Assembly (NCBI GenBank): GCA_002862785.1
Contig: PKDZ01000003.1
Location: 1 to 47,734, forward strand
Reading direction: 5' to 3'
DNA: 47,734 nucleotides
Origin: Flavobacteriales bacterium
GTDB taxonomy: Bacteria; Bacteroidota; Bacteroidia; Flavobacteriales_D; Sanyastnellaceae
Position 1 is the stretch's first letter. Every line of letters begins with the position of its first letter. Both the position numbers and the translations under genes were made by a program. Below are positions 1,828-31,903 of the stretch, piece after piece. The notes beneath the pieces were generated by a model that saw only the letters and a list, made by a program, of their open reading frames with translations, had not been told where the DNA came from and ran no database searches.

Positions 1828-2133
1828 ATGCAGAACATCCGGATGACGGAAGTCGAAGAAGATACGCTGGTCGATGAAGACGTTGCGTTGGACGAGGCGG
1901 TGTCCGGAGGATGGCACATCGTGCTGTACAACGATGACCACAACACCTTTGACCATGTCATCGATTGCCTCATGGCCTATTGCGGCCATGAAGTGCTTCA
2001 GGCGGAGCAGTGCGCCCTCATCGTGCACACGAAGGGGAAGTGCTCAGTGAAAAATGGGGATTACGACGAGCTCGAGCCCATCTGTACGGCGTTGACGGAA
2101 CGGGATCTCACTGCTGAAGTCGAGCCCACTTGA
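1828..2133 (+). CDS. clpS: ATP-dependent Clp protease adaptor ClpS
   Basis: N-recognin that hands proteins with bulky hydrophobic N-terminal residues to ClpAP/ClpCP. The 101-residue protein has an acidic flexible N-terminal tail and then the ClpS core: HIVLYNDDHNTFDHVI (about residues 30-45; the YNDD-H-T--D motif lines the N-degron pocket) and QAEQCALIVHTKGKCSV. The start at 1828 is chosen from the promoter position; GTG 1807 would add seven residues. It stands alone, divergent from the LytTR gene and just upstream of a secreted FG-GAP protein. A possible partner in the N-degron route, an ATE-like aminoacyl transferase, is encoded at 15354. Confidence 0.9.
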   Translation: MQNIRMTEVEEDTLVDEDVALDEAVSGGWHIVLYNDDHNTFDHVIDCLMAYCGHEVLQAEQCALIVHTKGKCSVKNGDYDELEPICTALTERDLTAEVEPT

Positions 2134-2186
2134 GTGGCCATACCCTCCCTCCTGCTATTTTCGACCTTCATCCCGTGTTTCCACCC

Positions 2187-4766
2187 GTGCGCTTGTCCTC
2201 TCTGTTGTTCCTGGTCCTCGCCATGGTGTCCGCTGTGCGGGTCCAAGCCCAGTGGCAGGATGTGACGGAGGTCTATCTCCTCGAGGCGACCACCCAAGCC
2301 AGTTGGCTGGGTTGCGGCATGAGCCTCGCCGACTTCAACCTCGATGGGCTCGACGACTTGACGTTCGCCAACAGCGATGGATCCGTGGTGGCCTACGCCC
2401 AGCTCCCCGAAGGTGGATTTGACTTGGTGCACAGCTTCCAGGGAGATGCGCAGGCGCAAGGGTTGGCGTGGTTCGATGCGGATGGGGACGAAGACCTCGA
2501 TTTGATGATCACGCGGCGCTTTGCTCGCATGGAACTGTACATGCGATCAGGGGATGTGCTCGTTGAAGAAGCCCCAGACCGGGGTCTGCCCATCAACTCC
2601 GATTGGGAAGGTCGCGGCCTGAGTGTCGGCGATTACGATTTGGATGGCGATCTCGATGTCTACGTGTGTCTCTACCATGATGGTACCGGGTCGACCCACG
2701 AAAACCTCCTGTTCAACAATGATGGCAACGGGTTTTTTACGGATGTGACGGAATTGGCCGGGGTGGGGAATCAGGTGCAGCACTCGTTTCAGGCCATTTG
2801 GTTCGACTACAACCAAGACGGATACGAGGATCTGTGGGTCATCAACGATCGGGACATCTTTCCCAACGCGCTTTACGAGAATCAGGGCAATGGAACCTTT
2901 GTGGATGTGGCGGAGGATGTGGGCGCCGCCCAGGCCATTTTCGGCATGACCGCCACAGTGGGCGATTTGGATAACGATGGCGTGATGGAACTGTTTTGCA
3001 CCAACATCGAGAATGAACCCAATCTCATGCTGGACCGCATTGGCCCAGTCTATCAGGAGGTGGGCCCCCAAATGGGGGTCGATGGATCCCGCTACAGTTG
3101 GGGTGGGTGTTTCGTGGATGCGGACGGGGACATGTGGAGTGACCTGATGGTGGCGACCTACCGGTTTCCGAATGCCCTTCCCTACGACAACTATTTCTAT
3201 GAAAACGCTCACCCGGAATACGGATTTGTGGATGTGACGGAGACGTCTTGGCCCATTGAACAGACGCAGCTGTATTGTGTCGGCGCCTGCGACATCGATC
3301 AAGATCTGGCCCCGGATGTCATCGGTTTCGGCAACATGCCCTTTGTCCAGGTGCTCCGGAATACAACGGCAGACGACGGTGGCGGCCCCGGAAGGCTGGC
3401 GGTTCGGCTGTGTGGCACCGAAACCAACCGATGGGCCATTGGTGCCGTGGTCGAGGTGCACGCCGGCGGGGTGGTCCAAACCCAGTTCGTCAGCAACGGG
3501 TCCGACTTCATGACGCAGCAGACCTGCACCCGGTACTTCGGATTGGCCGATGCTTTGGTGGTGGACTCTGTGGTCGTCGAGTGGCGTGGTGGGGACCGGG
3601 AGGTTTGGTATGACGTGGAGCCCAATGCGACTGTGTCCTTCATCGAGGGGAGCACAGACGCCCAGATTTCAGTTCAGGGCACGCCCTGCGGAGATGAGGT
3701 GGCGACGGCGACAGCCCCGTTTGATGCGCCCGTCATCCGGTGGAATGGAGAGGTGGTGGACTCCCCGATCTTCCCGCTTGTCGAGGCGGGTCCGCATGTG
3801 GTGGAGTGCGAATGGATGGGGGGACTCTTCACGTGGACGGACAGCATCGAATGGGTGCTTCCCGAACCGCATGGGTTGACAGTTGAATGGACCGAGCCCG
3901 AGTGTCACGGTGAACCTGGCATCCTCGGTTGGGTGGCCGCTGACGGCCTGATTGTCGACCATGCCGGTCTCACTTGGGATGCGGTGGTGACCAATCTAGG
4001 CAGTGAGGCGGGTGAGGTGATTTTCCTGACGACGAGCCCCGAGACAGGGTGCGTGGAGTCGCACGAATTCATCCTCCCGGAGCCTCCGGAACTGGGTGTT
4101 TCCCTAGACTACTCCCCGGCCCTGTGCCACGACGATGTGGCGCAAGTGCTGGCCTCAGGATATGGAGGGACACCCGGTTACTTGGTCAATTGGAGCGGCG
4201 TGGACCCGTCCAATCTGCCCCCCGGTGACGTGGGGTTCACGCTGACCGATGGGAATGGGTGCACCTTGGATTCAAGCCTTCAGGTGGTCATGCCTGATCC
4301 GTTGACCATTGAGATCCAGGTGACCAATGAGGATGCTGGAGAGGATGGCAGTTTGTCCCTTTTGATTGAGGGAGGAACACCGCCGTACAACGTCCTCTGG
4401 AATGATGGGACGCAAGGCGATACCATCCTGACGAATCTAGGACAAGGAGTTTACAGTTGGGTGGTGGAAGACGCCAACGGTTGTCTCCTGCTTGGTTTGC
4501 AGGACATCATCAACGTGGGCACACCTCTCGGGCCTCATTCCCCGCAGAGATGGTCCTTGGACATGACCGGAACGGAGTGGGCACTGTCCGGAGAACCGGC
4601 CGAAGGAGACCGCATCGAAGTGTTGTCCCTGTCCGGTCAGTTGGTCTGGTCTGAACCCACGTCTACGGGGCAGGTCATCGGGTCGGAGAACCCAAACCTG
4701 CCTCCCCACGGCGTGGTCTGCGTGCTGGATGTCGAAGGCCGTTTGGTGTTCGGTTCGGCTTATTGA
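2187..4766 (+). CDS. Secreted FG-GAP/VCBS-repeat protein with UnbV domain and SprB-like repeats (paralogue 1)
   Basis: Predicted exported protein of about 859 residues. A hydrophobic signal peptide (LSSLLFLVLAMVSAVRVQAQ) is followed by FG-GAP/VCBS repeats with Ca-binding-like loops (DFNLDGLDDL, DADGDEDLDL, DYDLDGDLDV, DNDGVMEL) over residues 30-390, an ASPIC/UnbV domain at about 400-475, SprB-like repeats (CHGEPG, GGTPGY, GGTPPY) to about 775, and a T9SS-like C-terminal beta domain. Such proteins probably form a beta-propeller adhesin or binding module on the cell surface; the ligand is unknown. The start is uncertain: GTG 2187 and GTG 2175 both give a good signal peptide, and 2130 is further upstream; a TATTTTCG -7-like element lies at 2156-2163. 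Closest relatives are the genes at 6165 and 8806. The 3' end overlaps rpe by 7 bases. Confidence 0.85.
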   Translation: MRLSSLLFLVLAMVSAVRVQAQWQDVTEVYLLEATTQASWLGCGMSLADFNLDGLDDLTFANSDGSVVAYAQLPEGGFDLVHSFQGDAQAQGLAWFDADGDEDLDLMITRRFARMELYMRSGDVLVEEAPDRGLPINSDWEGRGLSVGDYDLDGDLDVYVCLYHDGTGSTHENLLFNNDGNGFFTDVTELAGVGNQVQHSFQAIWFDYNQDGYEDLWVINDRDIFPNALYENQGNGTFVDVAEDVGAAQAIFGMTATVGDLDNDGVMELFCTNIENEPNLMLDRIGPVYQEVGPQMGVDGSRYSWGGCFVDADGDMWSDLMVATYRFPNALPYDNYFYENAHPEYGFVDVTETSWPIEQTQLYCVGACDIDQDLAPDVIGFGNMPFVQVLRNTTADDGGGPGRLAVRLCGTETNRWAIGAVVEVHAGGVVQTQFVSNGSDFMTQQTCTRYFGLADALVVDSVVVEWRGGDREVWYDVEPNATVSFIEGSTDAQISVQGTPCGDEVATATAPFDAPVIRWNGEVVDSPIFPLVEAGPHVVECEWMGGLFTWTDSIEWVLPEPHGLTVEWTEPECHGEPGILGWVAADGLIVDHAGLTWDAVVTNLGSEAGEVIFLTTSPETGCVESHEFILPEPPELGVSLDYSPALCHDDVAQVLASGYGGTPGYLVNWSGVDPSNLPPGDVGFTLTDGNGCTLDSSLQVVMPDPLTIEIQVTNEDAGEDGSLSLLIEGGTPPYNVLWNDGTQGDTILTNLGQGVYSWVVEDANGCLLLGLQDIINVGTPLGPHSPQRWSLDMTGTEWALSGEPAEGDRIEVLSLSGQLVWSEPTSTGQVIGSENPNLPPHGVVCVLDVEGRLVFGSAY

Positions 4767-6107: not shown

Positions 6108-6164
6108 TTCTGAAGGCAACGGTCGGGGATTCGAACCGTCTACCCTGTGCCTTACCTGAGCACG

Positions 6165-8741
6165 ATGTTTCATGTTCCTTTCCCTGCGCTGCGCATGGCA
6201 GTGCTGTGTCTCGCATTCCTTGTGTCCGGAACCGCCGAGGGGCAGTTGGAGGACGTGTCCGTCGGCCACCTCGTTCAGGCCTCGACGGCGGCCAGTTGGT
6301 TTGGCTGCGGGTTGAGCTGCGCCGACTTCGACGGAGACGGTTGGGACGATGTCACCGCCGCCACGTCGGATGGTCCCATTGAACTGTATTGCGGAGGGCC
6401 AGATGGTCTGGGGCACCATGCGTCCCTCGACCATGAAGTGGAGTCGAAAGCGGTGCTGTGGGTCGATGTCGACAACGACGGGGACCTGGACCTTGTGGCG
6501 GGTGTTCTGGGTGTCGGGTTGTTCCTGTACATGCAACAGGAGGATGGCAGTCTCGTGGAGGATGGCCTCAACCGTGGAATGCCCCTCTGGCCTGGATGGG
6601 ATGTTCGCGGAGTCTCGGCTGTCGATTACGACGAGGACGATGATCTCGATTTGTTCGTGGCCAGCTACCACGACGACATGGACACCGTGACCTATGAGAA
6701 CCTCATGCTGCGCAACGATGGCGGTGGGTTCTTTTCGGACCAGACCCTGGAGACCGGCGTGGGCAACGGACTGAAGCACACGTTCCAGGGCGCTTGGTTC
6801 GATTACGATGAGGACGGAGATCAGGACCTCTGGGTCATCAACGACCGCGCGGTCTTTCCCAATGCCCTCTACCGAAACATCGACGGAGTGTTCTACGACA
6901 TCGCAGAGGATGTGGGGGCTGACGTGGCCATCGAGGCCATGTCCGCCACCTTGTGTGACCCGGACAACGATGGAGATTGGGACATGTACATGACCAACAT
7001 CGAGGACAACCCCAACGTTTACCAGCGGAACGATGACGGGATGTTCACGGATATCGCCCAGTTGGCGGGTGTGGCCTCCCTCCAATATGGTTGGGGGACC
7101 CTCGCCATCGACCTCGATGGGGACATGATGCAGGATTTGATGGTGGCGACCTATCGCTTCCCGAACTCCAATCCTTATGACAACCACCTGTACATGAACA
7201 ATGGCAGTGGGACGAGCTTCACAGATGAAATCGAGAATTGGCCCAATGAGCAGTACCAATTGTACTGTCTGGGTCAATTGGACCTCGACAATGACCGGAC
7301 CCCCGACATCATTGGACACGGCAATGCGGCGCACGCCCAAGTGTTGCGCAACACCAACGAGGATGGATCGTCCCGATTGACCCTCAAGTTGGTGGGCACC
7401 CTCTCGAACTCCCATGCCGTCGGGGCCCTCATCCACGTCTGGTCTGGTGGGGTGCAACAAATGAGGCAAGTGGCCGCCGGGTGCGACTACATGACCCAGC
7501 ACAGCTACACGCAGTTCTTTGGGTGTGGGATGAACCTCGTTGTCGATTCCATTCAGGTTCGCTGGCCGAGTGGTCTGGAGGAGAAGTGGTATGGCCTGCC
7601 GGCCAACTCGGCTTTGACCCTCGTCGAAGGGACACAGGATGCGGCCCTGACCGCGATTGAAGGCGAGTGCCCTTGGTATCCCGATCGCTGGGTGGTGCCT
7701 GCCGTGGCGACTGAGGCGGAATTGACATGGAACGGGGAGCCCTTTACGGGAGACACCTTGGTGGCCGATACCACGGGGACGCAGGTCTTCGCGGCCACGT
7801 GGTGGGATGGAGTAGCGACGTGGACGTCGATGGTCGAAGCGGAATTCGGCGATGAGCCCAACATCACGTTAGAGGGGCTGGATCCGGCCTGTCATGGAGA
7901 GCTGGGTTCGTTGGTCTGGTCGGCGCCGGAGGCAGAATTTGTCCTGTGGCAAGAGGATTCGCTGACGTCCTCCGGACAATTGGATTCAGTGGGGCTTGGG
8001 GCCCATCTGCTCGTGGCCCAGATTCAAGAGGGATGCACCGTGGAAGCCTCAACGGAAATCCAGATACCGGACAGCTTGGCCATCCAGATGGTGGTCCATC
8101 ATCCCGACTGTTTCGGAGAAACCGGAAGCGTGGTCCTCACCTCGACAGGAGGTACCGGGCCGGTGGTGTTCGATGCGGGTACGCTGGTGTTCGACGAAGC
8201 TTTGCCCGGGGTCTATGGGGTCTTGGCCACGGATTCATTGGGATGCATCCGGACGGACAGCGTGGTGGTGGTGGAGCCGGATTTCCTCGTGTCCTCCTTG
8301 TCATACGGATTCTTCGGCATTGGTGATTCGGCGCAGGTTGACCTGCTGGTGGAGGGAGGGACTCCCCCCTATTCCATCATGTGGTCCGGTCCGATTGATG
8401 CTGAGGGCGGTGTGCTCGCCCCGGTGTCCCTAGGTTGGCTTGTGGAGGATGCCAACGGATGCCTCGATCTGGGGGTCGTCCAGATTGCGTCGAATCCGCT
8501 TGCCGAGGTCCCCGACGCCGAGCTCGAACCTTGGCGTTGCCGTCGGAATGCGGAGGGCATTCGGATTGATGCTTTCCGCCAGGGAAACTGGCTCGTTGAA
8601 CTGTGGGGACTGGATGGCCGTTTGCTCCACCGGCAACAGGTGCTGGGGTCCACGTTCCAGACCGTGTTGAGTGTTTCCGCTCCCGTGCTCATCCGGATGC
8701 GGTCCGAGGCCACCGGTGAAGAGCAGGTTTGGGTCCGCTGA
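6165..8741 (+). CDS. Secreted FG-GAP/VCBS-repeat protein with UnbV domain and SprB-like repeats (paralogue 2)
   Basis: About 858 residues. Signal peptide MFHVPFPALRMAVLCLAFLV then cleavage near TAEGQ; FG-GAP repeats (DFDGDGWDDV, DVDNDGDLDL, DYDEDDDLDL, DYDEDGDQDL, DPDNDGDWDM) to about residue 390; ASPIC/UnbV at about 405-480; SprB-like repeats (CHGELG, GGTGPV, GGTPPYS) and a C-terminal beta domain ending EEQVWVR, very like the end of paralogue 3 (SSVWVR), suggesting a shared sorting signal. ATG 6165 is preferred: a TACCTGAG element ends 4 bases upstream, the geometry seen at other starts here; GTG 6147 and ATG 6195 are alternatives. It forms a direct tandem pair with the next gene. Function is inferred only as surface-exposed or secreted binding protein. 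Confidence 0.86.
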   Translation: MFHVPFPALRMAVLCLAFLVSGTAEGQLEDVSVGHLVQASTAASWFGCGLSCADFDGDGWDDVTAATSDGPIELYCGGPDGLGHHASLDHEVESKAVLWVDVDNDGDLDLVAGVLGVGLFLYMQQEDGSLVEDGLNRGMPLWPGWDVRGVSAVDYDEDDDLDLFVASYHDDMDTVTYENLMLRNDGGGFFSDQTLETGVGNGLKHTFQGAWFDYDEDGDQDLWVINDRAVFPNALYRNIDGVFYDIAEDVGADVAIEAMSATLCDPDNDGDWDMYMTNIEDNPNVYQRNDDGMFTDIAQLAGVASLQYGWGTLAIDLDGDMMQDLMVATYRFPNSNPYDNHLYMNNGSGTSFTDEIENWPNEQYQLYCLGQLDLDNDRTPDIIGHGNAAHAQVLRNTNEDGSSRLTLKLVGTLSNSHAVGALIHVWSGGVQQMRQVAAGCDYMTQHSYTQFFGCGMNLVVDSIQVRWPSGLEEKWYGLPANSALTLVEGTQDAALTAIEGECPWYPDRWVVPAVATEAELTWNGEPFTGDTLVADTTGTQVFAATWWDGVATWTSMVEAEFGDEPNITLEGLDPACHGELGSLVWSAPEAEFVLWQEDSLTSSGQLDSVGLGAHLLVAQIQEGCTVEASTEIQIPDSLAIQMVVHHPDCFGETGSVVLTSTGGTGPVVFDAGTLVFDEALPGVYGVLATDSLGCIRTDSVVVVEPDFLVSSLSYGFFGIGDSAQVDLLVEGGTPPYSIMWSGPIDAEGGVLAPVSLGWLVEDANGCLDLGVVQIASNPLAEVPDAELEPWRCRRNAEGIRIDAFRQGNWLVELWGLDGRLLHRQQVLGSTFQTVLSVSAPVLIRMRSEATGEEQVWVR

Positions 8742-8805
8742 GGCCTCAGGAGTGCGGTTGGACTCCTTGATTTCTATCTTGTCCTTCCGTTCCAAATTGG
8801 CCTCG

Positions 8806-11361
8806 ATGCACTTTCGTTTTGTTCTTCTTGCCTTGGGTGTCCTGCTTGGATTGAATGAGGCATCTGGACAATTGGAAGATGTCTCCGCACAGTACATCGT
8901 GAGCGGTTCTGCCGGGGGCAGTTTCTCAGGGTGTGGATTGAGTTGTGCGGATTTCAATGGCGACGGTTGGGATGACATTACGCTCTCCGAGACCGAAGGC
9001 ACGATCAAACTGTATGCGGGAGGTCCTGCCGGCCCGGAGCTGACGCAGACCTTGACCGGAACCGGGGAAGGGCGAGGTGTTCTCTGGATCGATGTGGACG
9101 AAGACGGGGATTTGGACCTGTGGGTGGCCCGTTTTGAGGGAGCGCTGGAGCTCCACATCCAAGGCCCGGATGGCTCCTTGACCGAGGAAGGCGTGGCGCG
9201 GGGATTGCCCCAGCTCGAGGGATGGAGGCCCAGAGGACTGAGTGCCAACGATTACGATCGGGATGGAGATCTGGACGTCTACATCACCACCTATCACATC
9301 GATGTCCAGGATGCGTTTTACCCCAACCTGCTTCTCCGGAATGACGGCATTGGATATTTCGCCGAAGTGGCAGAGGATGCGGGGGTTGGGAACGGCATCC
9401 AGACGACCTTTCAAGGAGGTTGGCTGGACTACGACGACGATGGATGGGACGACCTCTGGGTGATCAACGACCGGCTTCTCTTTTCCAATTCCCTGTACCG
9501 GAATTTGGGAGACGGGACGTTTGAAGACGTGGCCCCCGATTTGGGACTCGATGTGAACCTCGATCCGATGACGGCCACCACTTTCGACCCGGACCAAGAT
9601 GGGGATTGGGACCTGTTCAGCACGGACGTGGTCAATTTTGCCCACCAATTCTTTGAATGCACCGACACGGGATATGTCGATGTCGCGGATGCCGTGGGAG
9701 TCTCGGGCATTCCTGATTACGGTTGGGGCGGCTGTGTTGTGGACATAGATGGCGATCGACGAGAGGACCTGATGGTGGCCACGAATTTTTTTCCTTCTGA
9801 ATCCCCCTCCGACAATCGGGTCTACATGAATGTCGAGTCGGGTTTGGGCTTCAATGAGAATTCAGCCCTCTGGCCCAATGAGCAGTACCCCCTATACAAC
9901 CTCGGCCGCTTCGATTTGGATCAGGACCGGTCCCCGGACATTGCCTGCCACGGTTCGCTTCCCACGGTCCAGTTGCTTCGGACGACCAACGATGGAGGCG
10001 CCTCAAGGCTTGCGCTCCGATTGGTTGGGACGGAATCGAATTCCCATGCGGTGGGCGCTCGCATCAAGGTGCACAGCGGTGGCAAGGTCCAGATGCAGCA
10101 GGTCGACGCAGGGGCAGATTACCAGACCCAACACACGTTCACCCGCTTCTTCGGCATGGGCGATCTGGTGTCCGTCGACTCCATTGAGGTTCGGTGGCCT
10201 ACCGGCATCACTGAAACGTGGTATGGACTGTCAGCGGACACGGCCGCGGTCTTGATCGAAGGCACCTCGACAGCGGCTTTGGTTGAGGTCGAGCGAGAAT
10301 GTCCTTGGGAGCCTCAAGGTTGGGTCTTGCCCTTTCCGTCGGATTCGGTGGCGATGATCTGGAATGGCCTGTCCGTCGACGCGGATACGGTCTGGGCCAC
10401 AACATCCGGCCTCCATATGCTGGAAGCGACGTGGTGGGATGGCCGGTTCAGCTGGACCCAGACGGTGGGGGCGACGGTCGAGCCCATTCCGACACTCGCG
10501 GTGACGGTCTCTCTGGCCCTGTGTCCTTGGGATTCGGCACTGGTCCAATGGGTCGCTCCGGATTCGGGCATGGTCACGGTCAATGGGGAAATTCCATTTG
10601 ACGGTGTTTGGTGGGAGTCAGAGACGTTGGATTCGCTTTCACTGGTGTGGATGCACCCCGATGGTTGTCTGCTGGATTCAGTGGTGTCGGTGGTGATTCC
10701 GGACCCAGTGAACATTGAGTGGACTCTTCTGGATGCGCCCTGTGCGGGTGAAGTGGGTGAGGCTGCCCCCACCCTCTCGGGCGGAACTCCGCCGTGGTCT
10801 GTGGATTGGATGGGATTGGAGCCCGATGCCCTTCCTGCAGGGGACCATTCTGTGCAGTTCACCGACGCAGTCGGGTGCGTCGTCTTGGACACCATCGCCA
10901 TCGGCGAGCCCGATTCCTTGGAAGTGGACATCAGCCTGTCCTATGCCGGCCTGTCGGATACTGCACAAGTGACCCTCTCCGTTTCAGGGGGCACCCTCCC
11001 CTACTTCGTGGACTGGTCAGGGGGCTTTGGCGATGGTGCCTTGCTCGCTCCGGGATTCCTGGGGTGGCTTGTGGAAGACGCTCAGGGATGCCTTGCGTTT
11101 GGTACGGTCGAAGTGTCATCCAATCCCCTGCAATCCGTGGAGGCGCTGGCCTCGGTTCATGGTTGTGTCCGGGAGGAAGGGGCCATTCGGTTCATTGGCC
11201 CGGACGTCTCAAGCCTCGACGTGGAGCTCCATGACCTCAGTGGACGCCTCCTTTTCCAAGGAAAAACCAAGGATTCCGGCCGCATTCCCTTCACGGCGGA
11301 GGGCGCTGTCCTGATTCGGGTGAGGGATTGGCTGGGCCGATCCTCGGTATGGGTTCGCTGA
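8806..11361 (+). CDS. Secreted FG-GAP/VCBS-repeat protein with UnbV domain and SprB-like repeats (paralogue 3)
   Basis: About 851 residues, same architecture as the gene before it: signal peptide MHFRFVLLALGVLLGLNEAS, FG-GAP repeats (DFNGDGWDDI, DVDEDGDLDL, DYDRDGDLDV, DYDDDGWDDL, DPDQDGDWDL), ASPIC/UnbV near 400-475, SprB-like GGTPPW and GGTLPY repeats, and a C-terminal domain ending SSVWVR. ATG 8806 is chosen because it opens the signal peptide; the open frame extends 45 codons further into the end of paralogue 2 without meaning. A TATCTTGT element at 8775-8782 may be its own -7 box. It converges on the isoaspartyl peptidase gene with 7 bases between stops. Confidence 0.87.
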   Translation: MHFRFVLLALGVLLGLNEASGQLEDVSAQYIVSGSAGGSFSGCGLSCADFNGDGWDDITLSETEGTIKLYAGGPAGPELTQTLTGTGEGRGVLWIDVDEDGDLDLWVARFEGALELHIQGPDGSLTEEGVARGLPQLEGWRPRGLSANDYDRDGDLDVYITTYHIDVQDAFYPNLLLRNDGIGYFAEVAEDAGVGNGIQTTFQGGWLDYDDDGWDDLWVINDRLLFSNSLYRNLGDGTFEDVAPDLGLDVNLDPMTATTFDPDQDGDWDLFSTDVVNFAHQFFECTDTGYVDVADAVGVSGIPDYGWGGCVVDIDGDRREDLMVATNFFPSESPSDNRVYMNVESGLGFNENSALWPNEQYPLYNLGRFDLDQDRSPDIACHGSLPTVQLLRTTNDGGASRLALRLVGTESNSHAVGARIKVHSGGKVQMQQVDAGADYQTQHTFTRFFGMGDLVSVDSIEVRWPTGITETWYGLSADTAAVLIEGTSTAALVEVERECPWEPQGWVLPFPSDSVAMIWNGLSVDADTVWATTSGLHMLEATWWDGRFSWTQTVGATVEPIPTLAVTVSLALCPWDSALVQWVAPDSGMVTVNGEIPFDGVWWESETLDSLSLVWMHPDGCLLDSVVSVVIPDPVNIEWTLLDAPCAGEVGEAAPTLSGGTPPWSVDWMGLEPDALPAGDHSVQFTDAVGCVVLDTIAIGEPDSLEVDISLSYAGLSDTAQVTLSVSGGTLPYFVDWSGGFGDGALLAPGFLGWLVEDAQGCLAFGTVEVSSNPLQSVEALASVHGCVREEGAIRFIGPDVSSLDVELHDLSGRLLFQGKTKDSGRIPFTAEGAVLIRVRDWLGRSSVWVR

Positions 11362-17224: not shown

Positions 17225-19201
17225 TCAGTTCCGGAGCAGGGTGATGCTGCCCGCTTCTGTTCGAAGGACATACCGCCCCGATGAGGGGAGTTGCAGGATG
17301 AGTCGCCCTTGGGGACACTGTCCGGACTCCACCAGTCGACCGGTGGCGTCGAACAGAACATAGCGTCCCAATGCCTGAGGGCTTTCCACCTGAACCCGAC
17401 CGTTCTCGGACGGGTTCGGCCAGGCGGTCATTTCCATGTCCATTTGCTCTTCCACGCCGTCCAGGATGGCCTCGATGGTGATGTCGGCAATGCGTTCGGG
17501 CAGGGGTGCGAATTCGGAGTACAATTGGCGGAAGCCATCGATGAGGCTGTCTCCCTGGAGTTCGAGCATGGGGGCCACCCACTTCGGGGGAATGGCCTGA
17601 TACCAGACGGTGCACTCCACGGTGAGTATGGAGTGTTGGTTCCATCCTTCAGGCAGGAGATATTGGATGCGGTCGGACCCGCTTCCCTCCTCGCCTTCTG
17701 AATCGAGGTTGAAGTTGGGATCTTCCAGGGCACCTCCAACGATCGCGGTGGTGTCATACACGGCATGGGCGGTGCTGAAGCCGCGTGGGGTCATCCGGTT
17801 GTCCTTGAGGTGCTCATGGGCCCGCTCGAGGAGGGTGGTCGGGTCGCCATTGACGTCACCGAGCACCAGTTCATAGATGAGCACGTCAGCAGGGTCTTCG
17901 ATGATGTCGTGGTGAGGCTCCCAAGCCACGTCTTCCTGGCCAAGGATGTGGCCGGTTTCGGGATTCCAGGCTCCGGAATGGAAGAGGGATTGTCCGTCAT
18001 CGCCACTGATTTCGACTTCGACCCACGCGCGACGTGCCGGGTATCCGGAGGGGAACTTGTGTCCGGCCTTGTTGGTCAGAAGCAAATCGACCCGGGGCAA
18101 GCCATCGTCGAGGATGAGTTCGGCCTCAAGGTCAAGGGTCTGCTCCTGGAGCATCGTCAGGGTGCGGTCGAGGGTGCTGTCGAATTGGGCTTCCGAGGCA
18201 GAGAGTCCGAGTGAATCGACGTTGTTCCGCAGCATGCGCAGCATGTGGGTGTTGGCTCCGACGAAGTAATGCAGGCTGTAGGGTGACCGGGGCTGGAGCC
18301 AAGCGTAGCCGCTCGCAATGCCCACTGGACCGTCAATCTGCGGCATGTGGCACCCCTGACACTCCTGCTGTTCTGGTCCGGATTCATAGACGGAGTTGAC
18401 CCATTCGTGGTAGGTGGCCTGCTCGATGACGGTGGCCCCGGTGTACTCCCCTTCTAGGTCGACGCTGGAGGTGACCAGACTGTGGCAGGCGGCACAGCTT
18501 TCCGAGCGGGTCATGTGCTCGCCATAGACCGGCATCAGCCCGACGAAATTGAACATGGGTTGCCACTGGATGGGGTAATCGTCCTTGCCACCCCCGTATT
18601 GGCCGTAGATGGTGTCTTCCACGAAGGTCATGTCGCCGCTAAACCGGGTGCCAATGCCATCGGCATCTTGCTGGTGACAGACGGCGCAGCTCACCCCATC
18701 GAGTGCGAGGCTGTCCGTCAGGGATTCGAGCAACGAATAGTATTCCGCACCGTCATGGTGGGCGGCGAAATGACCGACCGGCGCATGACAGCTCGTGCAC
18801 TTGTCCTCCAGACCCGCGGCGTGGGACGGGTTGGTGATGACCTCGTGGCGCACCTTGGCCCGCCAGAAGGGATCCTTGGTGCTGTTGGCCATCAGGGAAC
18901 TCCGCCAGTCGTCCACAACGTTGACGTCCCACCCGTCAGGCATAGGCTCCATGGGAAAGGTTTGTCCGGCGATGGAGGCCAATTCATTGGGGTCCTCGGC
19001 GTGACATCCGGCGCATTTGCCCGAGCCCTGAAAAAGGGAATTCAGGGTGTCCGGCAAACCGCCGAGCAAATCATTGTACACCACGCCCTCCAAACCATGG
19101 TGATAGGTTGCCTTCTGAGCATCATTCGCCGTCAGGCTGACCAACGCGCTCGTTGAGGCGAGGCCAAGCAACAGAAGAACGAAGCCGGCTGGACGGGACA
19201 T
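17225..19201 (-). CDS. Secreted pentaheme c-type cytochrome with T9SS C-terminal sorting domain
   Basis: Exported protein of about 658 residues. A signal peptide (AGFVLLLLGLASTSALVS) is followed by five CxxCH haem-attachment motifs: KCAGCH (about 63), KCTSCH (about 130), SCAVCH (about 170), SCAACH (about 225) and ECQGCH (about 275). A middle domain contains the LTNKAGHKFPSGYPARRAW segment seen in large multihaem cytochromes. The last ~75 residues (AWPNPSENGRVQVE ... RYVLRTEAGSITLLR) look like a type A T9SS sorting domain, which would place the haem protein on or outside the cell surface. No oxidoreductase-specific motif was recognised, so electron transfer is the only safe role. ATG 19201 is preferred; an in-frame start at 19228 falls in the upstream terminator. 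Confidence 0.88.
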   Translation of the reverse strand: MSRPAGFVLLLLGLASTSALVSLTANDAQKATYHHGLEGVVYNDLLGGLPDTLNSLFQGSGKCAGCHAEDPNELASIAGQTFPMEPMPDGWDVNVVDDWRSSLMANSTKDPFWRAKVRHEVITNPSHAAGLEDKCTSCHAPVGHFAAHHDGAEYYSLLESLTDSLALDGVSCAVCHQQDADGIGTRFSGDMTFVEDTIYGQYGGGKDDYPIQWQPMFNFVGLMPVYGEHMTRSESCAACHSLVTSSVDLEGEYTGATVIEQATYHEWVNSVYESGPEQQECQGCHMPQIDGPVGIASGYAWLQPRSPYSLHYFVGANTHMLRMLRNNVDSLGLSASEAQFDSTLDRTLTMLQEQTLDLEAELILDDGLPRVDLLLTNKAGHKFPSGYPARRAWVEVEISGDDGQSLFHSGAWNPETGHILGQEDVAWEPHHDIIEDPADVLIYELVLGDVNGDPTTLLERAHEHLKDNRMTPRGFSTAHAVYDTTAIVGGALEDPNFNLDSEGEEGSGSDRIQYLLPEGWNQHSILTVECTVWYQAIPPKWVAPMLELQGDSLIDGFRQLYSEFAPLPERIADITIEAILDGVEEQMDMEMTAWPNPSENGRVQVESPQALGRYVLFDATGRLVESGQCPQGRLILQLPSSGRYVLRTEAGSITLLRN

Positions 19202-19219
19202 GATGCGAAGGAAAGAAGA

Positions 19220-19244
19220 ACCCCGCACCGTTGCCGGGCGGGGT
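19220..19244 (-). terminator. Intrinsic terminator after the FG-GAP gene at 19266
   Basis: Read on the minus strand: a 10-base-pair GC-rich stem with one bulge (arms ACCCCGC/GCGGGGT plus CCG/CGG), tetraloop GCAA, then a TTCTTCTTTCC tail. It sits 21 bases after the stop at 19266 and only 18 bases before the cytochrome start codon. Confidence 0.75.
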
Positions 19245-19265: not shown

Positions 19266-22112
19266 TCAGCGGAGGACGATGCGCGCCGTGGCGGTGCGGC
19301 CTCCTTGCGTGAGCTTCAGGATGTGAACGCCCTTGGGCAGGGTCGAAAAGTCCAGGGTGCCAAGCAGGTTCGGTCCAGCAGCTTCCCGTTGGAAGAGCAG
19401 TCGGCCGGAGGCATCGATGACCTCACAGCGCACGGCGCCAGTGGCCACTTCCCATTGGAGTTGGACTTGCCCTTCCGTCGGGTTGGGATACACCTGAAGG
19501 CCGCCGTCCAGTACGGTGAGGTCGGCGACGCCACTGGTGGTCACGGTGACCGTCACGGGCACACGGTCAGAGGCGCAGGCGATGCCCTGGGTGCTCACTG
19601 TCCAATCGTAGAAGAAATAGTAGTAGTTGGTGGCGTTGTTGGGGTTGTTCACGCTGCTGGAGGTGATGGTCGCCAGATCGCCAAGTTCGTAGGGATAGTC
19701 GAGGTTGCTGCCCTGTCCGTCGCGCCACAACTGGGGGTTGCCATCGAGGCTGCGGAGGCCATGTCCCGTTCCGGCGGGAACGACGAGGCCCAGTTCCACA
19801 ATGCTCTCGCCATCGGGAATGGTCACCGTGATCTGGTCGAGGACGTTGCCGGCGCCGTCGATGGCGGCGATGGTCCGATCCTCTTCGCCATTGGCAAACA
19901 CCTTGACGCTTTCGATCACGAGGTCTTCATAGGCGTCGAAGCGGAGCCAGTAGTTGCTGTTGTTGTGGTATTGACCGTCACTCTGTGCGGACGATCCGCC
20001 CATTGCGGTTTCGAGGCCGTGGTTCAAAACGTCCTCCACCCAGAAGGTGGTGGTTTCGCTCAGCACGTCCGTGGTGTAGCTGTTGCCGACGAACACGGGG
20101 TTCTCTGCGGTCTCGCTGTCGTACCAGTGGAGTTCGGACCCCGTGAACTCCAGCGTCGTGCTGGCCGGGGCGGGAATTTCGGTGTCTTCCACGGTGGGGT
20201 TGCCGGGCACGTCGTAGACCTCGACCACGACATTCTCGGAGGCGGTGGGCTCGGCGCATTCTCCGTCGATGGCCACGCTGTACGTGCCGGCCTCGGAAAT
20301 CTGAATGCTCTGGTCCGTGGCGCCGTTGCTCCAAGCGTAGCCCGGGGCAGCGCTGCAGATGAGCGTGACGGTTTCCCCGTCACAAAGTTTGAGGTCGCCG
20401 TCGACCGTGATGGTCGGAACCTCTGGCTCGTAGACCTCGATGGAGATCGGGTTGGAGATGCCGGCGCAGCCATCTTGGTCATAGACGAGCACAGTATAGT
20501 TGCCGGTTTCTCCCACGGTGATGCCGAGGGCCATCTCGCCATTGCTCCACTCGTAGGTAGCGTAACCCATCGGAGCGTCAATCGTGACGGTCTCTCCCGG
20601 GCAGATGACGTTGGCCCCGGTCAGGGTCAGGTCGAAGGCGCCGATTTGGCACGGAGCTTCGATGACGTTGTGGTAGGTGTCGATGGCGGGATCAATGAGG
20701 GTCGTGGTGAATCCGCTCGGGAAGTGCACCACGGCGCTGTCGATGTGGTCGGCCTCGCCAAGACCGAAGTGCGGGTGGGTCGTGCAGGTGATGCCGTAGC
20801 TCTCGCCGGCACGGACATCACGGAGCTGAACGCCCCAGGGTCCATAGATGGCGACCTGGGCGCCCACCGCATCGGCGTTGGATTCGATGCCCTGCAGGTC
20901 GAAGCACACCCAGTGGTGATCACTGCCATCGTTGATGTAGAGCTGGTCCGGGTTGTTGTTGTCCGGGCTCACGTACACGCTGCCGTGGCTGGCAATCAGG
21001 TCCATCTGGCCGTCGCGGCTCACGTCACCGGTGGCGAAGCTGAGCATGGCGTCGCCGTAGCTGAATGGCCAGGCGAGTTGCTCGAACGTGCCGTCGCCGT
21101 TGCCCTTGAAGTAGTAATTGGAGCTGTTGTCTCCGGAGGTGATAAAGTCGAGGAAGCCGTCGTTGTCGAAGTCCTCAAACTTGCTCTGGAGGAAGAAACC
21201 GCTGACCTCCATGCCACTGCCGGCGGTGATGTCGGTGTAATGGCCGGTGCCGTCGTTTTCGAGGAGGAACAAGGTCGTGCTGTGGTTCGTCACGGCAAGG
21301 TCCATGTCGCCGTCGTTGTCGATGTCACCGAAGTCTGCCGTCCAGCTCTGCTCGAAGAACACGAGGCCGCGGTCGGCCGCCTCCTCGGTCCATCCTCCCT
21401 GGCCGTCATTGACCCAGAGTTGGTTGATGCGGCGCGGGTCTTGAGGGTCGCTGACAAACTGGCGGCACTTGGCGATGTACAGGTCGACGTCGCCATCGCT
21501 GTCGAAATCGCTGAATACGGTGCCGTAGTTGCCGCTGTGGTCGGTGTTCGGGTAATCGGTATGGTCGTAGCTCATCAGCGGCATCAGGTTCTGGTCGTTG
21601 ACCGGAGGGCCGGTCTCGGAGCCTTTCCACATGCGGCTGAGGGCGTCGTCGTGGCAGCCAAAGGCGTCGAGGACGCCGTCGTTGTCGAGGTCGGCCATGT
21701 TGCAGGCCTGCATGAACATGGAGCCGTTGTCGAGGTCGTTGAGCTCGAAGGTGCCTCCGGGACCGATGGCCATGAAGTGAACGCCGTCATAGCTGCCGCC
21801 GGCGTAGATGTCCTTGAAACCGTCGTTGTTCATGTCGCCGATGCAGGCGCCCCACTGGTTTGCGGTGCTGACCTGACCGTAGTGGACCTTGCTGAATCCG
21901 GTGGCGGTCTGGTAGAGAATGTTGACGTCGTCGCCCTGGTCGAAGAGCACGAGGTCATCCAGTCCATCGTTGTCGACATCGATGAAGCCGATTGGGCCTC
22001 CGCTGTGGAAGGCGTCGCCGAGCAGATCGGTGGACAGGGTGAAGGATTGGGTGAATGCGGTGACGCTGAACAACAGCATGGCAGTCAACGCGGAAAGGCG
22101 GGTTTGGTTCAT
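19266..22112 (-). CDS. Secreted FG-GAP/VCBS protein with UnbV domain and type A T9SS sorting domain
   Basis: About 948 residues. Signal peptide LSALTAMLLFSVTAFTQ; VCBS/FG-GAP repeats with DVDNDGLDDL, DMNNDGFKDI, DLDNDGVLDA, DFDSDGDVDL, DIDNDGDMDL, DFDNDGFLDF (to about 370); ASPIC/UnbV around 415-480; two Ig/PKD-like segments with YEWSNGEMALGI and YAWSNGATDQSI; and the C-terminal VYPNPTEGQVQLQWE ... GVHILKLTQGGRTATARIVL sorting domain. This is the fourth UnbV protein in 20 kb but is more distant from the other three. ATG 22112 opens the signal peptide. A TACCTTGC -7-like box at 22133-22140 and a palindrome at 22147-22160 lie upstream. The gene ends in a strong terminator. Confidence 0.88.
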   Translation of the reverse strand: MNQTRLSALTAMLLFSVTAFTQSFTLSTDLLGDAFHSGGPIGFIDVDNDGLDDLVLFDQGDDVNILYQTATGFSKVHYGQVSTANQWGACIGDMNNDGFKDIYAGGSYDGVHFMAIGPGGTFELNDLDNGSMFMQACNMADLDNDGVLDAFGCHDDALSRMWKGSETGPPVNDQNLMPLMSYDHTDYPNTDHSGNYGTVFSDFDSDGDVDLYIAKCRQFVSDPQDPRRINQLWVNDGQGGWTEEAADRGLVFFEQSWTADFGDIDNDGDMDLAVTNHSTTLFLLENDGTGHYTDITAGSGMEVSGFFLQSKFEDFDNDGFLDFITSGDNSSNYYFKGNGDGTFEQLAWPFSYGDAMLSFATGDVSRDGQMDLIASHGSVYVSPDNNNPDQLYINDGSDHHWVCFDLQGIESNADAVGAQVAIYGPWGVQLRDVRAGESYGITCTTHPHFGLGEADHIDSAVVHFPSGFTTTLIDPAIDTYHNVIEAPCQIGAFDLTLTGANVICPGETVTIDAPMGYATYEWSNGEMALGITVGETGNYTVLVYDQDGCAGISNPISIEVYEPEVPTITVDGDLKLCDGETVTLICSAAPGYAWSNGATDQSIQISEAGTYSVAIDGECAEPTASENVVVEVYDVPGNPTVEDTEIPAPASTTLEFTGSELHWYDSETAENPVFVGNSYTTDVLSETTTFWVEDVLNHGLETAMGGSSAQSDGQYHNNSNYWLRFDAYEDLVIESVKVFANGEEDRTIAAIDGAGNVLDQITVTIPDGESIVELGLVVPAGTGHGLRSLDGNPQLWRDGQGSNLDYPYELGDLATITSSSVNNPNNATNYYYFFYDWTVSTQGIACASDRVPVTVTVTTSGVADLTVLDGGLQVYPNPTEGQVQLQWEVATGAVRCEVIDASGRLLFQREAAGPNLLGTLDFSTLPKGVHILKLTQGGRTATARIVLR

Positions 22113-22132
22113 CCTTGAAGGTTTGCGGAACG

Positions 22133-22140
22133 GCAAGGTA
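22133..22140 (-). promoter_or_regulatory. -7-like element TACCTTGC of the FG-GAP gene at 22112
   Basis: Read on the minus strand, partial TAnnTTTG match (TA and TT positions) with a 20-base leader to the ATG. The same octamer precedes nth at 46568. Confidence 0.3.
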
Positions 22141-22146
22141 AGCACT

Positions 22147-29088: not shown

Positions 29089-29218
29089 GTAAAAGAATCC
29101 ACGTGTGGTGGATGTGTCAAAGTTCGCACAACACGCCGCCGCTTCGACACGGATGCAGGAACTTTGTGAGAACACGCAACCTGAAGCCCTTCCAGCCGTT
29201 ATTCAATCAGACCTGTCC

Positions 29219-31903
29219 ATGACCGCTCTTCATCGACTCTGCCGCGCCGGCTTGATGCTGGTCTTGCTGGTGATGGTGTTGCCCTTGTCCGCAACGCACA
29301 TCGTCGGTGGAGAGATCAGCTACGAGGATTTGGGCGGCGGGTCCTACCGAATTCGGTTGGTGGTCTACCGGGACTGCGGTCCGACCAACCAGAATGGGAC
29401 CGGTTTTGATGATGCCGCCTCGGTCGGGATTTTCAATGCCAATGGTCAGTTGGTCAATTCCATCAGCATTCCCCTCTCCTTCCAGAACGTCAATGAGGTT
29501 CCTGTGACGCTCGAGAATCCGTGTGGGACCCCGCCTCCCTCGGTGTGTGTGGAACAGGCGGTCTACCAGCAAATCGTGGACATCGGGGAATCGCCGAATG
29601 GATTCACGTTGAGCTACCAACGTTGTTGCCGGAACCCGTCCATCATCAATCTGACCAATCCGGATGATGCTGGGGCCACGTTCACCACCCAGATTCCCGG
29701 CACGAACCAAACCGAGGAGCCCAACAGCAGCCCCGTCTTCAACAGCCTGCCCCCGGTCGCTCTCTGCGCGGGATTCGATTTCTTCTTCGACCACAGCGCG
29801 ACCGATGCGGATGGAGACAGCCTCGCCTACACGTTCTGTTCTCCCATGTTTGGTGGCACGCCGAACCAGCCGGCCCCCAACCCGCCTAATGGTCCGCCGT
29901 ATACCGATGTGAATTGGGCTGCAGGGTATTCGGCGACCTACCCGATTGATTCAGACCCGGCCCTGGCCATCGATCCTGTGACGGGCTTCATCACGGGTCA
30001 ACCCACGGCCGCAGGTCAGTATGTGATTGGCATCTGTGTGGAGGAATGGCGGGACGGCATTTTGCTCAGCACATCCAACCGGGATTTCCAATTCAACGTC
30101 ACGGTGTGCGATCCGAACATCACCTCCCAGGTGGCCATCCAGACTGGAAGCCAGCTGTGCATCGGCGAGACCATTGATTTCCAGCAATTCTCAATCAATG
30201 CGACCTTCTTCCATTGGGATTTCGGCGTGCCGGGCATCGAGTCGGATACGTCGAATCTGGCTTACCCGAGCTACACCTTTCCGGAACCCGGAACCTACAC
30301 CGTGACGCTGGTGGCGAACCCGGGGTGGCCCTGTGCGGACACGAGCACCTCCGTGTACGACGTTTTTGAGCCTGTCAACCCAGAGTTGGAAGTGACGGGG
30401 TTCGACTGTTCCACAGGGACGCCTGTGTTTGATTTCGGAACAGCAGAGACCTACAACGGGGCCGACTTCACGTGGGACTTCGGCAACTTGGCTTCCAGCG
30501 GTGCCAGTACGCTGGCGGCTCCGGATGGAATTGGATTCCCGGAGATCGAAGATGTGGAGGCCGAACTGACCATCGTGCAAAACGGATGCGTCGGCAGTGG
30601 CGTGCTCGATTGGACGCCGCCCCCACCGCCTACAGCAGCCATTGGGCCTCAAGAGGACTTCTGCACCGGCTTCACCTTGTCCTTCGACAACAACAGTGTC
30701 GGCGGGTCCGGATACGTTTGGGAGTTTGGGGAGCTTGGCAATGAGGACGTGAGCTACGACGCCTTCCCCACCTGGACCTACGATGGCCCCGGAACTTATG
30801 TGGTGCAGTTGGTCACGCTGGCCGATTTTCAATGTCCCGATACGACGTCGGAAGTGTTCGAGGTGGCGTGGCTGCTCGAGCCGTTCTTCGAGACTCCCGA
30901 CCCTGAATGCTTCCAAGAGCACAGTTTCAGTCTCGAGGCCATCGGGGTCACGGACCCCAATGCCACGTTTGAATGGAACTACGCTCCGGGCAATGCGGCC
31001 ATCGAGTCGGGCGGCGTTCTCCAAGGGCTCACCTTCCCGGAGCCCGGCCTGTACACCGTCGAGGTCGTGGTCACGGCTGAGGGATGCGAACGCGACTTCG
31101 AATCCGAGGTCGAGGTGCTCTTCGACCCCTCCATCGGGTTTGATGGTGGTCCGGTGACGGGCTGTCCGCCCTTGCCGGTGAGTTTCGAAAACCTCTCCGT
31201 CACCGAGACTGCGGCCGGCTACACCTGGTATTTCGGGGATGGCACCACCTCTTCCTCCCCCAATCCGACGCACGTCTACGAGGTGCCCGGCAACTACACG
31301 GTGACGTTGGAGATGAGCACGAGCGGATTCTGCGTGCAGGAATTGGCGGAGACCAAGACGGCCTTCATCGAGGTGTATCCGGAGCCTTCTGCGGGTTTCG
31401 ACATCGAGCCCAACATCGTGGACATCCTCGAGCCGCTTGTGACTGTGGAAGACCTGAGTTCCGGGGCATTCCAGCATTACTACAACTTCGGGGACGGAGG
31501 ATCGAGTGACGAAAGTGATCCGACCTATGTGTTCACCGGAGCCGGAGTGTTCAATGTGAGCCAGACGGTCATCAACGAATACGGCTGCACGGATGTGGCG
31601 CAGGGGGAGGTTGGCGTCAATGGAACGCTGTTTTATGCTCCCAACAGCTTTTCCCCCAACAACGATGGCATCAACGACGTCTGGCAGCCGGTGACCACCG
31701 GCACGGCGGCGTACCGGTGCACCATTTACAACCGCTGGGGCGAGATCATCTTCGAGACGGAGGATCCCGATGGCGTGTGGCAAGGTGAGGTCCATGGAGG
31801 GGACCACTTCGCAGCAGACGGGGTCTACCTCTACCAAGTCTACCTCGAGGACCAGCTCCGGATTCCGTTTGAATACGCCGGACAGATTCAACTGTTCCGG
31901 TGA
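29219..31903 (+). CDS. PKD-repeat surface protein with CHU_C-type (type B) T9SS sorting domain
   Basis: About 894 residues. Signal peptide (LMLVLLVMVLPLSATHIVGG) then the Bacteroidota N-terminal module GGEISYEDLGGGSYRIRL with CCRNPSI; several PKD-like beta domains (HWDFGVPG, WDFGNLA, WEFGELG, WYFGDGTTSSSPNPTHVYE, YYNFGDGGSSDES with YVFTGAG) and a C-terminal gliding-motility-associated domain starting YAPNSFSPNNDGINDVW and ending in GVYLYQVYLEDQ. Type B domains send cargo such as SprB through T9SS with help from PorP/SprF-like partners, none of which is adjacent. ATG 29219 opens the signal peptide. Divergent from the helicase gene. Confidence 0.92.
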   Translation: MTALHRLCRAGLMLVLLVMVLPLSATHIVGGEISYEDLGGGSYRIRLVVYRDCGPTNQNGTGFDDAASVGIFNANGQLVNSISIPLSFQNVNEVPVTLENPCGTPPPSVCVEQAVYQQIVDIGESPNGFTLSYQRCCRNPSIINLTNPDDAGATFTTQIPGTNQTEEPNSSPVFNSLPPVALCAGFDFFFDHSATDADGDSLAYTFCSPMFGGTPNQPAPNPPNGPPYTDVNWAAGYSATYPIDSDPALAIDPVTGFITGQPTAAGQYVIGICVEEWRDGILLSTSNRDFQFNVTVCDPNITSQVAIQTGSQLCIGETIDFQQFSINATFFHWDFGVPGIESDTSNLAYPSYTFPEPGTYTVTLVANPGWPCADTSTSVYDVFEPVNPELEVTGFDCSTGTPVFDFGTAETYNGADFTWDFGNLASSGASTLAAPDGIGFPEIEDVEAELTIVQNGCVGSGVLDWTPPPPPTAAIGPQEDFCTGFTLSFDNNSVGGSGYVWEFGELGNEDVSYDAFPTWTYDGPGTYVVQLVTLADFQCPDTTSEVFEVAWLLEPFFETPDPECFQEHSFSLEAIGVTDPNATFEWNYAPGNAAIESGGVLQGLTFPEPGLYTVEVVVTAEGCERDFESEVEVLFDPSIGFDGGPVTGCPPLPVSFENLSVTETAAGYTWYFGDGTTSSSPNPTHVYEVPGNYTVTLEMSTSGFCVQELAETKTAFIEVYPEPSAGFDIEPNIVDILEPLVTVEDLSSGAFQHYYNFGDGGSSDESDPTYVFTGAGVFNVSQTVINEYGCTDVAQGEVGVNGTLFYAPNSFSPNNDGINDVWQPVTTGTAAYRCTIYNRWGEIIFETEDPDGVWQGEVHGGDHFAADGVYLYQVYLEDQLRIPFEYAGQIQLFR

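Follow-up and report, generated by a model that had tools for sequence, protein, structure and literature searches.

The closest described relatives of the protein considered here belong to a pentahaem cytochrome (PHC) family, in which ExtKL, Gsu2801 and the cable-bacteria proteins sPHC and lPHC have been grouped and their likeness to cytochrome c552 noted (available part of PMC11976967). In the same part of that text the accounts of c552 mention no export domain, an evolutionary link between c552 and the archaeal nanowire AvECN is put forward as a suggestion, and the four AvECN haems are aligned with haems I, III, IV and V of cable-bacteria sPHC. A second set of described proteins, the type A cargoes of the type IX secretion system (T9SS) such as RemA, NucA, the gingipains and PorZ, end in a seven-stranded C-terminal domain (CTD). 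We analysed a 47,734-nucleotide stretch of a Flavobacteriales bacterium (GenBank assembly GCA_002862785.1, contig PKDZ01000003.1, positions 1 to 47,734; the window) and within it one gene on the minus strand, which, judging by its sequence and predicted structure, likely encodes a conserved surface pentahaem cytochrome exported by T9SS, with a c552-type fold joined to a T9SS sorting domain.

Both halves of such a protein are known, as the PHC group and as the T9SS cargo domain, but we found no description of their junction, or of any T9SS-exported multihaem cytochrome, in the open-access literature, judged largely from titles and abstracts and with most subscription papers outside that scope. 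The main text of a review of T9SS effectors does not, in its available part, contain the word cytochrome (PMC10202324), and a Melioribacter genome paper and one from the Gulf of Mexico refer, in the parts available, to Por sorting domains and to cytochromes but to no cytochrome that bears such a domain. The original prediction for this DNA regarded the phylum as not well known for surface redox chemistry. This roughly holds, although secreted multihaem proteins have already been predicted from metagenomes of activated-sludge Bacteroidota (available part of PMC11495043). Those proteins resemble the one described here in being predicted extracellular multihaem proteins of the same phylum, but the emphasis there is on very many haem sites and on Saprospiraceae, and the available text speaks neither of T9SS nor of type IX.

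The pentahaem core

The gene and the parts of its product are as follows.

17225..19228, minus strand: pentahaem cytochrome gene; 667 amino acids from a GTG, 658 from the ATG at 19201, with homologues across most of its length
19124..19201, minus strand: hydrophobic N-terminal segment lacking cysteine, a probable Sec signal peptide (residues 1-26)
17468..19039, minus strand: predicted pentahaem core and beta domain of c552-type fold, from superposition on 5ze8 (residues 55-578)
19001..19015, minus strand: haem motif 1, CAGCH (from the alignment)
18785..18799, minus strand: haem motif 2, CTSCH (from the alignment)
18674..18688, minus strand: haem motif 3, CAVCH (from the alignment)
18482..18496, minus strand: haem motif 4, CAACH (from the alignment)
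18347..18361, minus strand: haem motif 5, CQGCH (from the alignment)
17228..17437, minus strand: T9SS C-terminal (sorting) domain with seven predicted strands (residues 589-658)

Residues are counted from the ATG at 19201 (658-residue form) unless the 667-residue form is named. The open reading frame was originally placed at 17225–19201 with no strand given, and this is confirmed on the minus strand, the coordinates fitting the ATG start and a product of 658 residues. The claim that it carries five CxxCH motifs is likewise borne out: the cysteine, cysteine and histidine columns of the five motifs (15 of 15) are invariant in all 38 aligned rows, ten of the 12 cysteines of the protein sit in these motifs, and the Pfam family Cytochrome_C7 is matched above its cut-off (33.9 versus 24.8 bits). 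The alignment consists of the window protein and 37 of 42 references; L045, L013, L017, L028 and L052 were omitted as close to retained rows, and L038, L041, L048, L054, L055 and L056 (truncated or containing N), together with L003 (the window itself), were excluded beforehand. L038 is a 96% identical copy whose apparent shortening is a run of N. The match in L004 (1501–3504, genome G041) includes one TGA, and its open frame starts at 1522; with the TGA just upstream of what is likely to be coding sequence, this gene is probably intact. There is one copy of the cytochrome gene in its own genome.

A chance origin of the motifs was ruled out by 20,000 residue shuffles, none of which gave more than two CxxCH motifs in a sequence, as against five in the protein. 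A frame or assembly artefact was ruled out as well, all 38 aligned rows being open over the same length.

The best Foldseek match of the predicted structure is 5ze8, the pentahaem cytochrome c552 of Thermochromatium tepidum (E 2.6e-11), which also superposes on the core with a Z of 17.7 over 337 aligned residues (VIA-align; 3.8 Å, 19% identity), other rows being far lower. An alignment-profile search again returned 5ze8 (E 0.0022), with the multihaem cytochrome selenoprotein MccSep matched weakly (E 0.08). The ExtKL profile NF040886 matches 36 of the 38 aligned relatives at E<=1, but the window protein scores 40.9 bits, far under the cut-off of 250 for this equivalog, and is not ExtKL proper. 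Taken together, alignment and model suggest that the core belongs to the PHC group with c552, ExtKL and Gsu2801. It shares with these five haems and a haem region followed by a beta domain; it differs in the presence of a T9SS domain and in a W..S.H segment, where the histidine of c552 and of distant members is replaced in this clade by a methionine (valine in L062). Candidates for distal haem ligands would be H311 and H381, which are conserved wherever covered, and H430, which is conserved in strong relatives.

Kinship with the decahaem cytochromes OmcA and MtrC, raised by matches to TIGR03507 and PF22113, was ruled out: the matches are partial, none exceeds its cut-off, and the predicted fold is that of c552. 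The resemblance lies in a probable outer-surface location of a multihaem protein and in a TIGR03507 score of 28.2 bits over the haem region (cut-off 209.3), whereas the protein here differs in its five haems, its fold, a signal region that lacks cysteine and its predicted route of export, and we found no MtrB in the family genomes.

The C-terminal domain and its distribution

The proposal that the protein ends in a type A-like T9SS domain is upheld by superposition on solved CTDs and by the presence of the tail in all 38 aligned relatives, with P595, P597, G621 and Y644 invariant. TIGR04183 (type A) matches 36 of these 38 at E<=1 (best 3.6e-12) and PF18962 matches 24 of them at E<=0.01. When the profile of the 38 relatives was compared with the Protein Data Bank (PDB), the T9SS cargo domains 8glk_D (E 1.2e-4) and 8glj_D (E 0.0029) were matched, and a gingipain domain weakly. 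The predicted tail has block pLDDT values of 85-95 from residue 591 onward and superposes at a root-mean-square deviation of 1.8-2.0 Å on PorZ (Z 8.9), RemA (Z 8.1), NucA (Z 8.0) and mirolase (Z 7.9); the RemA (8gl6_D) and NucA (8glk_D) CTDs are bound to the translocon, as is that of RemZ, which is matched at Z 7.2 (8gl8_D). Export of RgpB needs a loop glycine in its CTD (available part of PMC11285876), and by our reading of the alignment this glycine would correspond to the invariant G621. With type A cargo the protein has in common a seven-stranded CTD, a PNP start, the loop glycine, GxY and a probable signal peptide; it is unlike them in that the cargo is a multihaem cytochrome, in a TIGR04183 score below the cut-off, and in lacking a lysine near its end.

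The protein occurs in nearly all sampled genomes of its own taxonomic family. There, 59 of 61 genomes gave a match, which in G042 is to the CTD only, so that the core is found in 58 of 61. An order-wide sample gave matches in 59 of 150 genomes, made up of 49 of 51 from the own family and, from the 99 others, nine strong and one weak, and a phylum-wide sample gave 37 of 296 at E<=0.001, of which 14 (the own genome included) are below 1e-100. The 26 named relatives come from metagenome-assembled genomes, most of them labelled Flavobacteriales and including Crocinitomicaceae bacterium TMED114; four are labelled Chryseobacterium gleum. Outside the family we compared 12 strong relatives, one per genome (L061-L072; in L070 the sequence breaks off at the end of a contig). 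TIGR04183 is above cut-off in L063, L064, L065 and L070 and below it in L062 and L066, while L061 has a tail that no model matches.

Several observations weigh against this assignment and against export. In the window protein itself TIGR04183 reaches only 17.2 bits (E 0.0038, residues 603-661 of the 667-residue form) for a cut-off of 23, and PF18962 is not reported even at E<=10; in a search of the whole genome with TIGR04183 at E<=0.001, none of the 42 places found, 36 of them above cut-off, is the cytochrome gene. Failure of the C-terminal residues to match any sorting-domain model had been named from the outset as grounds for rejection; the model was matched, but below its cut-off, which makes the outcome of this check borderline. 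The lysine near the C-terminus, almost invariant among type A domains (available part of PMC10994853) and a typical rather than a defining feature, is absent here, and the segment after GxY is shorter than in other cargoes of the genome. Lysine is also absent from the last 14 residues in seven of 19 further cargo tails that could be read in the same genome; a twentieth, L111, is not counted because its frame was wrong. Unrelated Ig and FN3 domains reach Z 7-8 as well; their matches, to residues 353-658, were set aside as common beta-sandwich matches. The predicted model is poor across the haem region, with pLDDT <50 for residues 196-315. Finally, five of the 12 other-family relatives (L067, L068, L069, L071 and L072) stop after the core, in genomes that have SprA.

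These points can be accommodated by a periplasmic c552-type carrier, the CTD-like tail of which would be a relic or an Ig-like domain. Such a carrier would fit the sub-cut-off score and the missing lysine, the tail-less relatives in SprA-bearing Bacteroidota genomes, and a Sulfurovum plasmid relative that matches the core only (residues 66-546 of the 667-residue form, 35% identity). We nevertheless think it improbable, given the conservation of the tail with its invariant residues in every aligned relative, its fold, which is that of true cargo CTDs, and the breadth of TIGR04183 matches among the relatives. The borderline score of the single protein is overruled because the tail is conserved in relatives, the PDB profile matches point to cargo domains, and the predicted fold is like that of cargo CTDs. 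The tail-less relatives mean that the core can exist without the export tag; the distribution as a whole shows core and tail to be separable and the tail to be long-standing in this lineage. In a tree of 29 rows (rooted for drawing only, with L061 scored as tail-bearing by eye) the rows without a tail, nine in all, form two well-supported groups, one made up of these five and the other of four distant rows, and the tail label has to change twice.

Absence of T9SS was ruled out as an explanation of the tail-less forms, SprA being present in each of the 22 genomes tested, among them the five that carry a tail-less form.

Proposed export and a possible role at the cell surface

The N-terminus has a mean hydropathy of 2.3 over residues 5-16, is a helix at residues 2-27 in the predicted structure and contains no cysteine, which fits a probable Sec signal peptide rather than a lipoprotein signal. 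The machinery that export would need is present in the genome: SprA appears as two adjoining matches in one frame, PorU and PorV are adjacent on contig 2, 36 TIGR04183 domains score above cut-off, and there are two matches to cytochrome c assembly. On the favoured reading, that of a T9SS-exported surface cytochrome, the protein would pass by Sec to the periplasm, where the haems would be attached and the protein would fold; the folded holo-protein would then cross through SprA on PorV, its CTD would be cleaved off by PorU, and the mature protein would be attached to the cell surface or released. These steps after translation are modelled on the behaviour of T9SS cargo (available parts of PMC10994853, PMC9251779 and PMC11285876). 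Outside the cell it would most likely act as a surface redox protein without a wired partner, its haem chain passing electrons among small molecules or metals, for instance as a reductase or an electron buffer.

If this is true, T9SS exports a protein with five covalently bound haems, which would offer a stringent natural test of folded-protein transport together with a simple coloured reporter. It would also mean that bacteria seldom regarded as electroactive carry a redox protein on their surface, and would supply a concrete set of genes with which to probe surface redox chemistry in Bacteroidota.

Apart from the cytochrome itself, neither the window nor the flanking sequence of 19 related loci contains an open reading frame with at least two CxxCH motifs, and no partner or conduit for the cytochrome was identified in the porin search or among those flanking frames that could be named. 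The porin MtrB/PioB (PF11854) was found in none of 41 family genomes, the own genome included, which is a weak test, as none of 14 control genomes scored above cut-off (one matched below it) and PF11854 does not cover unknown porin types. The multihaem negative is limited because the survey of the genome covered the first 100 of its 187 CxxCH pattern places and because two family genomes (G009 and G029) hold tandem cytochrome copies.

These results bear on the possibility that the cytochrome is the terminal reductase of a path across the outer membrane to metals or humics, that is, of respiratory extracellular electron transfer. The fold group contains ExtKL, proposed for extracellular electron transport in Geobacter (available part of PMC11976967), surface location is probable, and the genome has an alternative complex III cluster (ActD, NrfD-like, iron-sulphur and cytochrome subunits) with a multihaem subunit that has six CxxCH pattern places. 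We nonetheless regard this possibility as unlikely, set against the lack of MtrB/PioB matches in the 41 family genomes and, in the window and the 19 flanks, of another open frame with two or more CxxCH motifs. Of the interpretation first offered for the gene, the part that stands is the union of five haem motifs and a T9SS CTD in one protein, in a genome bearing T9SS and cytochrome assembly genes; haem attachment, arrival at the surface and extracellular electron transfer would be predictions beyond it. A partnerless surface redox role is preferred to respiratory transfer because no outer-membrane conduit was found; the preference is weak, and porins of unknown type or unlisted multihaem proteins could change it. 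Should the protein be exported, a stand-alone surface redox enzyme or metal reductase is about an even prospect, while true respiratory extracellular electron transfer and some other role (a haem store or an adhesion partner) are each rather doubtful.

The gene next to the cytochrome suggests a further possibility.

19266..22145, minus strand: FG-GAP/UnbV (CRTAC1-like) protein carrying a T9SS CTD of its own (TIGR04183, 43.3 bits), upstream of the cytochrome

Each of the 15 close loci (13 of them distinct) has a homologue of this protein directly upstream of the cytochrome; they comprise all six same-genus genomes and the nine loci with the closest cytochromes (65-96% identity). It is conceivable that the cytochrome is an extracellular reductase that serves the assimilation of iron or copper or detoxifies reactive nitrogen or oxygen species, and that within the genus it is paired with the FG-GAP/UnbV surface protein. 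In addition to this pairing, the idea draws on the methionine that replaces the W..S.H histidine, and on the classification of cable-bacteria PHC proteins as potential catalysts that have an open haem site (available part of PMC11976967). The pairing is restricted, however: none of the remaining 41 loci has the homologue, and in 13 of them at least 2.5 kb of upstream sequence is available. The ligand assignment comes from alignment alone and both functions are guesses, and we hold the idea as tentative, though less doubtful than respiratory transfer. In loci of other genera with long flanks the same four clusters occur upstream in 12 of 12; named in L047 as RecF/SMC-like, DciA, TPR and lumazine synthase, they give no functional hint.

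A more ambitious extension is a porin-independent electron route in Bacteroidota, in which T9SS would export folded, haem-loaded pentahaem cytochromes, of a lineage likened to archaeal ECN nanowires, that assemble or pack into a conducting or storing surface coat; this route would be old, near-universal in one Flavobacteriales family and recurring across the phylum. We consider it very unlikely. AvECN differs in having four haems and in forming a nanowire, and the protein here is known from sequence and predicted fold alone.

Further relatives and neighbouring genes

A second, more distant pentahaem subfamily is represented by L073, L074, L075 and L076 (genomes G177, G114, G310 and G314). The CTD scan covered three of these four, L075 excepted, and among distant pentahaem proteins TIGR04183 is above cut-off in L073, L074, L076 and L083. 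Outside Bacteroidota, the Sulfurovum mangrovi plasmid relative (L101, 7854-9521) aligns with residues 66-546 of the 667-residue form, the T9SS tail lying outside the match. A plasmid of Paracoccus seriniphilus encodes a distant relative within a protein of about 1000 residues annotated as hypothetical (L102, 6909-9920), with genes for a Na+-translocating NADH:quinone reductase and a cytochrome c3 family gene as neighbours. The Sulfurovum and Paracoccus plasmid loci were compared and share no common partner. The tandem cytochrome copies of the two family genomes are arranged head to tail (G009:C32:447-4052 and G029:C255:9978-13566).

Within the window, four FG-GAP/UnbV (CRTAC1-like) proteins are encoded in about 20 kb, at 2130-4766, 6147-8741 and 8671-11361 on the plus strand and, adjoining the cytochrome, at 19266-22145 on the minus strand. 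A PKD-repeat protein at 29105-31903 on the plus strand has at its end a domain of the CHU_C kind (type IX secretion signal), which gives the window a second kind of CTD.
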